From a virus, in IMG/VR virus record IMGVR_UViG_3300037517_001660, positions 1 to 23,585 of that record: 23,585 nucleotides of DNA; one strand, given 5' to 3'. The notes under the pieces are model-generated. The model searched no databases and was not told where the DNA came from. It was given only the letters and a program-made list of their open reading frames with translations. Made by a program: the position numbers and the translations under genes. Within the stretch, counting starts at the first letter, position 1. Each line of letters begins with the position of its first letter. Shown one piece after another: positions 3,152-9,932 of this stretch.

Positions 3152-3666
3152 AAAAATATGAAATGATTCCGACTGATTTAAAAGCGCCATCGGGTAATCC
3201 GTTTTTTAGAGTTAAATCATTGATTGAGATCGGTTCACTGATTATGCCAGGTGAACTTGGCGGCCTAATAGAGTATGAAAAAAACTTGTCACAATTCGGC
3301 GATGCATGGATTTTCGGCAATGCAAGGATTTCCGGCAATGCAAGGATTTCCGGCGATGCATGTATTTACGGCAATGCAAGGATTTCCGGCGATGCATGTA
3401 TTTACGGCAATGCATGTATTTCCGGCGATGCAGAGATTTCCGGCAATGCAGAGATGATAAATATTATAGGCCATCGCTATAACTTAACATTTACGCCACA
3501 AAATGTTTCTGGTGGTTGTAGACTTTTTACTCATGATGAATTTAGAGATTTAACATTAGAAAAATGTGAATCAGAATGGGAACAATGGGAGTTGGATAAC
3601 TATAAAGCTTACCAAAAACTATACTTAGAAAGATTGGAGAAATATCGTGACAAAGAAAAAAACTAA
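3148..3666 (+). CDS. Hexapeptide-repeat (left-handed beta-helix) phage protein (172 aa)
   Basis: Translation starts at a GTG that overlaps the upstream stop as GTGA. Residues 51-104 are nine tandem six-residue units of the form G-[D/N]-A-x-I-x, for example GNARIS and GDACIY. Hexapeptide repeats of this kind fold into left-handed beta-helices, three units per turn, so about three turns here. The N-terminus (about 1-50) and the acidic, Trp/Tyr-rich C-terminus (about 105-172) are not repetitive. Proteins with such repeats occur in many phages and prophages, usually without known function; there is no sign of an acyltransferase active site. Its last 20 bases overlap the next gene. Confidence 0.75.
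   Translation: MKKYEMIPTDLKAPSGNPFFRVKSLIEIGSLIMPGELGGLIEYEKNLSQFGDAWIFGNARISGNARISGDACIYGNARISGDACIYGNACISGDAEISGNAEMINIIGHRYNLTFTPQNVSGGCRLFTHDEFRDLTLEKCESEWEQWELDNYKAYQKLYLERLEKYRDKEKN
3298..3459 (+). repeat. Nine tandem 18-bp coding repeats
   Basis: Units begin at 3298, 3316, 3334, 3352, 3370, 3388, 3406, 3424 and 3442 and follow the pattern GGCRATGCANNNATTTNC; the ninth diverges at its end. Some units are identical (3316, 3334 and 3370; 3352 and 3388), pointing to recent duplication or slippage. Each unit encodes one hexapeptide, so gain or loss keeps the frame. Confidence 0.95.
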
Positions 3667-8725: not shown

Positions 8726-8751
8726 TTTAGGCAATCAAGCCGAGGGGAATT

Positions 8752-9816
8752 ATGAAAATATTAATGCTGTTACTATTATTAGCCTGCGAAAAACCACAAC
8801 CGCCTAAACCCGATCCAGTGACAGTACAACCGCCAGTGTCATTGCCGACAACTGATAGTGCGAAATATAATCTATATTTAAAAGGTGAATTACGTGGCGC
8901 TAATATGTACCAGCAAGAAAAAGGATCAAGTGCTGGTCAGGTTTGGAATCCAAACATTACGCTGCAAGATTTAAAAGACTTAAGAAATGCTGGTGCTAAC
9001 TTTGTTAATTATTCTGTGCCAGGTGTTTTTGATGTCAATAAATATACTAAGCGAAATGATTTTGTGACCAAATTAGACACGTTAATCAAACATGCGTCAG
9101 ATGCTGGTTTGTATATCGTTATAGCATTTAGAACAGGCCCAGGCCGTGGTGAATATGACATTACCAATGATGGCATTAATAATAAGAAAGTTTACACCGA
9201 TGCCGCTGCTCAAACTGCCTATATCGAAATGTGGAAATTCATTGCGACGAAATACAAGGATAATAAATACATTGCTGGTTACGATTTAATGGTTGAACCG
9301 CATGATATTGACGCCGCTAAGTGGTCAGCATTTGCGCAAAAATTAGTTGATGCGATTAGAGCAATTGATGGCAATATGCCGATTATTGTCCCGGCGCCAG
9401 ATTGGTCAACGGTTGACGGTTTAAAAATGATAGGCAATTTAAAAGGGAATAATTTAGTTTATGCTGTACACCAATATGAACCCTATGAATATTCGCATAA
9501 TAATAAAGGCAATGTTGATGCGGCGATTAAGGAATTAAATGCGCTTTACTCAAGTATTTATTCATGGATTAATTTGCATAGATCACCTGTTATTGTTAAT
9601 GAATTTGGAGTGGCGAATAAAGTAACTAATGGCGAGAAATTTATAGCTGCGCAATTAGCGAAATTAGATGGCGCAAAGATTTCGTATGCTGCTTGGATTT
9701 GGGAAGTTGAATATGACAAGGATTATGATTATGCTGAGTTTGATTTCAAAGACAAGGCAGCAATTCTGAATGAATATAAGAAGTCATGGGCTAAGAATGT
9801 GGAGTTTGTGAGATGA
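8752..9816 (+). CDS. GH5-like glycoside hydrolase lipoprotein (354 aa)
   Basis: GAGGGG precedes the ATG. A short signal peptide ends in the lipobox LLAC (residues 9-12), followed by a Pro-rich linker (about 13-35), so the enzyme should be a membrane-anchored lipoprotein outside the inner membrane. The remainder is a clan GH-A TIM barrel resembling GH5 cellulases and mannanases: RGANM at 48-52, YDLMVEPHD at 177-185 with the acid/base E182, VHQYEP at 239-244, NEFG at 283-286 with the nucleophile E284, and W315/W317. The Asn that normally precedes the acid/base is Val181. The substrate is unknown; host capsule, exopolysaccharide or envelope glucan are options. A full-length lipoprotein GH5 in an early phage operon is unusual and may be a recent acquisition. 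It overlaps the next gene as ATGA. Confidence 0.8.
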   Translation: MKILMLLLLLACEKPQPPKPDPVTVQPPVSLPTTDSAKYNLYLKGELRGANMYQQEKGSSAGQVWNPNITLQDLKDLRNAGANFVNYSVPGVFDVNKYTKRNDFVTKLDTLIKHASDAGLYIVIAFRTGPGRGEYDITNDGINNKKVYTDAAAQTAYIEMWKFIATKYKDNKYIAGYDLMVEPHDIDAAKWSAFAQKLVDAIRAIDGNMPIIVPAPDWSTVDGLKMIGNLKGNNLVYAVHQYEPYEYSHNNKGNVDAAIKELNALYSSIYSWINLHRSPVIVNEFGVANKVTNGEKFIAAQLAKLDGAKISYAAWIWEVEYDKDYDYAEFDFKDKAAILNEYKKSWAKNVEFVR

Positions 9817-9932
9817 AAGAATTTCCAGATTATTTCAATATCATCGTGACAGCTATTTTTTTCGCATGGTTAGTGACTACAATTATTTATTGGCTTATCT
9901 ATATTGGATACACAATGGGGCAAGGCAAATAG
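9813..9932 (+). CDS. Small membrane protein (39 aa)
   Basis: The ATG overlaps the glycoside hydrolase stop. The polar start MKEFPDYFN is followed by a hydrophobic segment of about 22 residues (IIVTAIFFAWLVTTIIYWLIY) and a short Gly-rich tail. One membrane span is clear. No ribosome binding site is evident, so expression would be coupled to the hydrolase gene, and a functional link, such as shared action at the envelope, is conceivable. The next gene begins one base after its stop. Confidence 0.55.
   Translation: MKEFPDYFNIIVTAIFFAWLVTTIIYWLIYIGYTMGQGK

Follow-up and report, generated by a model that had tools for sequence, protein, structure and literature searches.

A gene at positions 8752 to 9816 of the window (the whole 23,585-nucleotide stretch of DNA that was analysed, a partial tailed-phage genome) encodes a 354-residue protein of glycoside hydrolase family 5 (GH5). 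It belongs to a clade in which three of eight residues otherwise constant in the family are replaced and both catalytic glutamates are kept. On balance the protein is probably a membrane-anchored hydrolase – active, of the GH5 type, and carried by the phage as cargo – that is displayed on the infected cell and acts on polysaccharide of the envelope or matrix. GH5 is among the best-studied of enzyme families, and an Arg, a His and an Asn in its -1 subsite are regarded as nearly universal: a clade that keeps both Glu and replaces all three is a direct test of the role of those residues and of the substrate that is accepted. The phage copy would add an unusual mode of delivery, in which the infected cell, and not the virion, bears the anchored glycosidase.

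The gene lies on the plus strand (as do all features given below), starts with an ATG at 8752 and is preceded by a ribosome-binding-site-like GAGGGG (8742-8747). Its product matches the Pfam profile PF00150 (Cellulase/GH5) at E=6.9e-33 (114.7 bits, cutoff 23.5), as do 36 of 36 clade members. The AlphaFold model, based on a 36-row alignment (A2), has a mean pLDDT of 90.1, a pTM of 0.88 and eight barrel strands; in it E182 follows β4 (residues 174-178) and E284 stands at the end of β7 (280-285), the arrangement of a complete (β/α)8 barrel with its catalytic Glu at β4 and β7. An earlier note, made from the DNA letters, had described a full-length GH5-type hydrolase, and both the profile match and the predicted fold bear this out. 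The top Foldseek matches of the model are GH5 endoglucanases (6kdd, TmCel5A, CelC and TtEnd5A; E down to 2e-17, TMt 0.78-0.80), and the best match is not to a non-catalytic family.

Lipoprotein-like start and phage setting

The protein begins with a putative signal peptide of only 11 residues (MKILMLLLLLA; 8752-8784), in which a short hydrophobic start leads to LLAC (residues 9-12) and to Cys12 (8785-8787), the predicted lipid-anchor residue. A Pro-rich linker (EKPQPPKPDPV..., residues 13-38; 8788-8865) follows, the model having a pLDDT of 54-69 over residues 1-30. The signal is shorter than the 15-35 residues that the PROSITE rule for a lipid-bearing Cys prescribes. A second phage (L004, L005; MREKMVLKMLVNLFQVTIIALSVSC) also carries the GH5 gene, although its large terminase is a clearly different protein. 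By blastn the DNA that the two phages share has its left edge precisely on the Cys codon (8785) and extends to 9820, shortly after the stop codon: the segment 8785-9820 is 89% identical and resembles a cargo cassette, its flanks are different, and the signal peptides on the two sides of the comparison are non-homologous. Because two unrelated signal peptides both lead into this Cys and the Pro-rich linker behind it, lipidation of Cys12 is supported, and we infer that the phage protein is lipidated on this residue and exported. The earlier note's view of the protein as a lipoprotein thus fits the LLAC motif and the lipoprotein-like start. The form is not specific to the phage, however, since a lipobox-like start is found in at least 19 of the 55 clade members (cellular and viral) with a readable N-terminus.

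In the 5' part of the window the gene order is a recombination ATPase-like gene, an HNH nuclease and the GH5 gene; downstream lie adenine-methyltransferase-like, metallophosphoesterase, ParB-like and C5-methyltransferase genes, followed by terminase, portal and major capsid. A longer identical contig extends 4.9 kb further than the window and there carries tail genes, which lie beyond the capsid. The GH5 gene is therefore situated upstream of the terminase and, as the earlier note had proposed, outside the tail region; its product has an export-signal-like start, whereas a phage tail depolymerase is encoded among tail genes and has no export signal. The GH5 proteins of Erwinia phages phiEaP8 and Hena1 and of Klebsiella phage SopranoGao differ from it in size (700-830 aa) and in keeping the Asn before the acid/base (24-29% local identity), those of phiEaP8 and Hena1 being annotated in or beside tail genes. 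The GH5 gene of Pseudomonas phage ZQG1 resembles the studied gene in lying outside the tail region, where it adjoins the portal gene, but its product has an ordinary Asn-Glu pair (LMNEP) and no N-terminal lipobox.

The two phage versions of the gene differ with dN 0.031 and dS 0.553 (dN/dS about 0.06): the phage GH5 gene is under strong purifying selection. The search of metagenomes for phage homologues that the earlier note had proposed was made by scanning viral contigs (by protein, alignments and motifs) and by tblastn against phages and plasmids; it returned only the studied phage, its copies and the one sister phage, and the RTGPGR pattern gave only chance matches in viral contigs. The clade profile found no match in more distant phages, which share portal and capsid at 34-45%, although their records may be incomplete. 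Taken together, purifying selection, different terminases and the lack of a match in distant phages suggest that the gene is best regarded as cargo that selection maintains in a small group of phages.

If the protein is anchored as predicted, then after infection it would be exported by the Sec/lipoprotein route, Cys12 would be lipidated, and the Pro-rich linker would hold the barrel at the envelope. There the barrel would most likely hydrolyse beta-linked polysaccharide belonging to the host envelope or to the surrounding matrix, with Glu182 as acid/base and Glu284 as nucleophile of a retaining mechanism, in a rebuilt -1 subsite that has Asn86, Arg127 and Val181 instead of Arg, His and Asn. 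The likely benefit would be a loosened capsule or matrix around the infected cell that favors escape and spread of progeny, or sugar released for the host.

Alternatively, the lipoprotein might serve receptor trimming or superinfection exclusion, altering or masking a surface glycan receptor and so protecting the infected cell from further phage and keeping new virions from re-adsorption to debris. Lipoproteins that phages encode away from their structural genes often serve exclusion, the gene stands amid DNA-modification and methylase genes, and the more distant phages of the group gave no match; on the other hand, lipoproteins with that role are as a rule small and lack enzymatic activity, and the complete glycoside hydrolase barrel with its conserved catalytic Glu speaks for the importance of catalysis. 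We consider this explanation unlikely, and it need not be mutually exclusive with that of an envelope-directed hydrolase.

A 16.9-kb contig in a Bdellovibrionota genome (L224) carries relatives of the portal, capsid (33-35%) and terS genes and is a possible prophage and hint of host. Together with the GH5 homologue nearest to the phage protein, these relatives hint at a Bdellovibrionota host without proving it; the search for a tRNA gene as a further clue to the host found none.

Several minor features of the phage DNA were recorded. A 39-residue single-span membrane protein, read by eye at 9813-9932, overlaps the GH5 stop codon (ATGA) and is possibly translationally coupled; an unrelated 57-residue membrane protein takes its place in the sister phage. 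Local mosaicism is evident in a near-identical phage (L263), where a 55% relative stands in for the ParB-like gene and the C5-methyltransferase has no match. At 1867-2151, after two holin-like and one peptidase-like open reading frames, lies a small Cys-containing lipoprotein-like frame that is a candidate spanin. Tandem repeats (3297-3450), open in several frames, occur in a YdcK-type beta-solenoid gene (Pfam PF18836). One record deposited as 'Bacteriophage sp.' (L006, MT835628.1) holds SusC/SusD-like and glycosidase genes as in a Bacteroidota polysaccharide-utilisation locus and is probably not a phage.

Relatives in bacteria and archaea

The earlier note drew attention to Val181, which stands where clan GH-A enzymes have Asn (Val181-Glu182, GTT GAA; 9292-9297). 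The change from Asn to Val takes two base changes. A sequencing error can be rejected, since the same codon is found in two further contigs that are 100% identical (L002, L003) and in the 92-95% identical protein of the other phage (L004, L005). A mutation confined to the phage can likewise be rejected, the Val being fixed in a cellular clade: at least about 65 cellular relatives carry it, in Chloroflexota, Aminicenantes, Bipolaricaulota, Acidobacteriota, Bdellovibrionota, Myxococcota and a few archaea. A degenerate YDLMVEP search of GTDB genome contigs yielded at least 117 loci; tblastn identified about 60 of these as true relatives, most of them with both (F/A)RTGPGR and GYDLMVEP(N/H); an exact-peptide scan of genome contigs gave no match. 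The best among the matches listed is a locus from Bdellovibrionia (L143; 42%, 3e-76, tblastn).

Because the YDLMVEP search itself selects Val, its result was checked by motif-free protein and profile searches of 369 Bdellovibrionota, 251 Chloroflexota and 237 genomes of the phylum of L051 (Deltaproteobacteria according to its record, Myxococcota in the tree listing). The searches gave two separated score classes: Chloroflexota members scored E<=1e-141 and the next GH5 1.5e-33. Every member had Asn, Arg and Val or Cys at the three positions, whereas the readable ordinary GH5s had Arg, His and Asn (two of them having Phe instead of the His). Seven members were found without the motif (L175-L178, L202, L225, L227), six with Val, one with Cys and none with Asn. 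In a tree of 44 proteins, whose long outgroup branches call for some caution, the Val group forms a single clade (support 99/98), within which the phage proteins group with L143 and L051 (100/99), the Bdellovibrionia and Myxococcota homologues to which they are nearest (about 40% identity). The substitution noticed earlier is thus real, and the nearest homologues do not have Asn at this site; it is, however, not peculiar to the phage protein, being clade-wide and coupled with Asn86 and Arg127. The first interpretation is therefore partly supported, the altered residue appearing as one part of a three-residue change.

The best solved structure scores 140 bits against the clade profile, compared with roughly 350-610 bits for clade members. 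None of 36 members matched an NCBIfam model, the clade motifs were found in no relevant paper, and the branch is described in no paper or database searched. Judged by the literature and NCBIfam, the clade is apparently an undescribed branch of GH5, which CAZy may already list. Gene neighborhoods of the cellular homologues showed no consistent partner.

That the closest relatives are secreted or lipoprotein enzymes of cells would also be expected of an auxiliary metabolic gene, acquired from a Bdellovibrionota- or Myxococcota-like bacterium and degrading environmental polysaccharide to feed the infected host. There are viral precedents in the excerpted reports of a soil-virus GH5 endomannanase (Emerson et al. 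2018, PMC6786970) and a rumen-virus GH5 cellulase (PMC10465536), both described there as shown to be active and so also precedents for the preferred reading of an active hydrolase. Like the phage copy these are accessory genes; compared by description, the excerpts mention neither a lipid anchor nor an Asn-Arg-Val active site. Against this origin and role, no transporter or sugar-use gene was recognised in the window, and an identity of about 40% implies either an old acquisition or an unsampled donor. We regard it as distinctly unlikely.

Active site and substrate

The clade has in common with CelC (1cec), TmCel5A (3mmu, 3amc) and TtEnd5A (8ag9, 8b3y) the PF00150 domain, the barrel, the two Glu, the His and Tyr of β6 and the Trp of β8. 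In printed alignments with CelC, identical residues are E140 (E182 in the phage protein), H198 and Y200 (H240 and Y242; 9469-9477), E280 (E284, the predicted nucleophile; 9601-9603) and W313 (W315, kept in most members; 9694-9696). E182 is the predicted acid/base, as the earlier note had supposed: it aligns with CelC Glu140 and with the Glu mutated to Ala in the E329A chain of TtEnd5A, a position marked by the PDB titles of 1cen ('Glu 140 replaced by Gln') and 8anx ('E329A'). The differences from CelC lie at R46, which is Asn86 on β2 (9007-9009), at H90, which is Arg127 on β3 in the motif FRTGPGR (9130-9132), and at N139, which is Val181 on β4. Thus the β6 His-x-Tyr, the β7 Glu and the β8 Trp of GH5 are present, whereas the β2 Arg and β3 His of the -1 subsite and the Asn before the acid/base Glu (Val throughout the clade, with one Cys exception) are absent. 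Since that Asn is lacking, GH5 membership rests on profile and fold, and Val181 marks a divergent clade.

Conservation within the clade is high. The 36-row alignment shows no substitution at R127, V181, E182 or Y242, and N86, H240 and E284 reach at least 90%; E284 is kept in every aligned member that covers the site, and both catalytic Glu, His240 and Tyr242 are kept in nearly all complete members. That the barrel is a pseudoenzyme or glycan-binding protein, which has lost hydrolysis with the three-residue change and only binds polysaccharide, is very improbable: the Arg, His and Asn are indeed all replaced, and catalytically dead groups are documented, in that GH5_30 (set apart here by its description, and like the clade in having changed active-site residues) and other GH5 modules are reported to lack the catalytic machinery, one such group being lipoproteins (Aspeborg et al. 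2012, PMC3526467), but those groups lost essential catalytic residues, whereas here both Glu and the His, Tyr and Trp are kept over very long divergence, many phyla and archaea, and Arg and Asn appear at neighboring positions. The loss of the β2 Arg together with the gain of an invariant β3 Arg suggests remodelling of the -1 subsite rather than decay. No characterised or solved clade member was found, so the preferred reading – an active hydrolase – rests on the two retained Glu.

The Asn lost in the clade normally contacts the 2-OH of the -1 sugar; Val could therefore suit a sugar that is C2-substituted or reoriented, and an altered substrate or activity, as the earlier note had suggested for the phage protein, remains plausible for the Val-bearing clade. 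Four clade GH5 domains (L161, L138, L075 and L162, from Chloroflexota and one archaeal genome) have at their C-terminal side a domain of GH114, the endo-galactosaminidase family, which acts on exopolysaccharides that contain galactosamine (PMC12054363), and other members carry beta-helix, laminin-G-like or propeller domains. These partners favor an extracellular polysaccharide, perhaps with amino sugars, as the substrate of the clade. The phage protein lacks a partner of this kind, so that for it these domains are weak evidence, and no genomic link of the phage copy to a defined polysaccharide was found. As a long shot, the -1 subsite of the clade might have been rewired (Arg moved from β2 to β3, Asn lost) to accept C2-substituted sugars, for example amino sugars in matrices that resemble Pel or galactosaminogalactan, with phages of Bdellovibrionota-like bacteria using a surface-anchored copy to open the matrix.

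A separate GH5-like group (L204, L206, L207, L210, L215, L216 and others) has Gln in place of the β3 His, AYSLLAEP around the acid/base (with Ala before it) and HxF for HxY, and is a further naturally occurring deviation from the usual active site of GH5.
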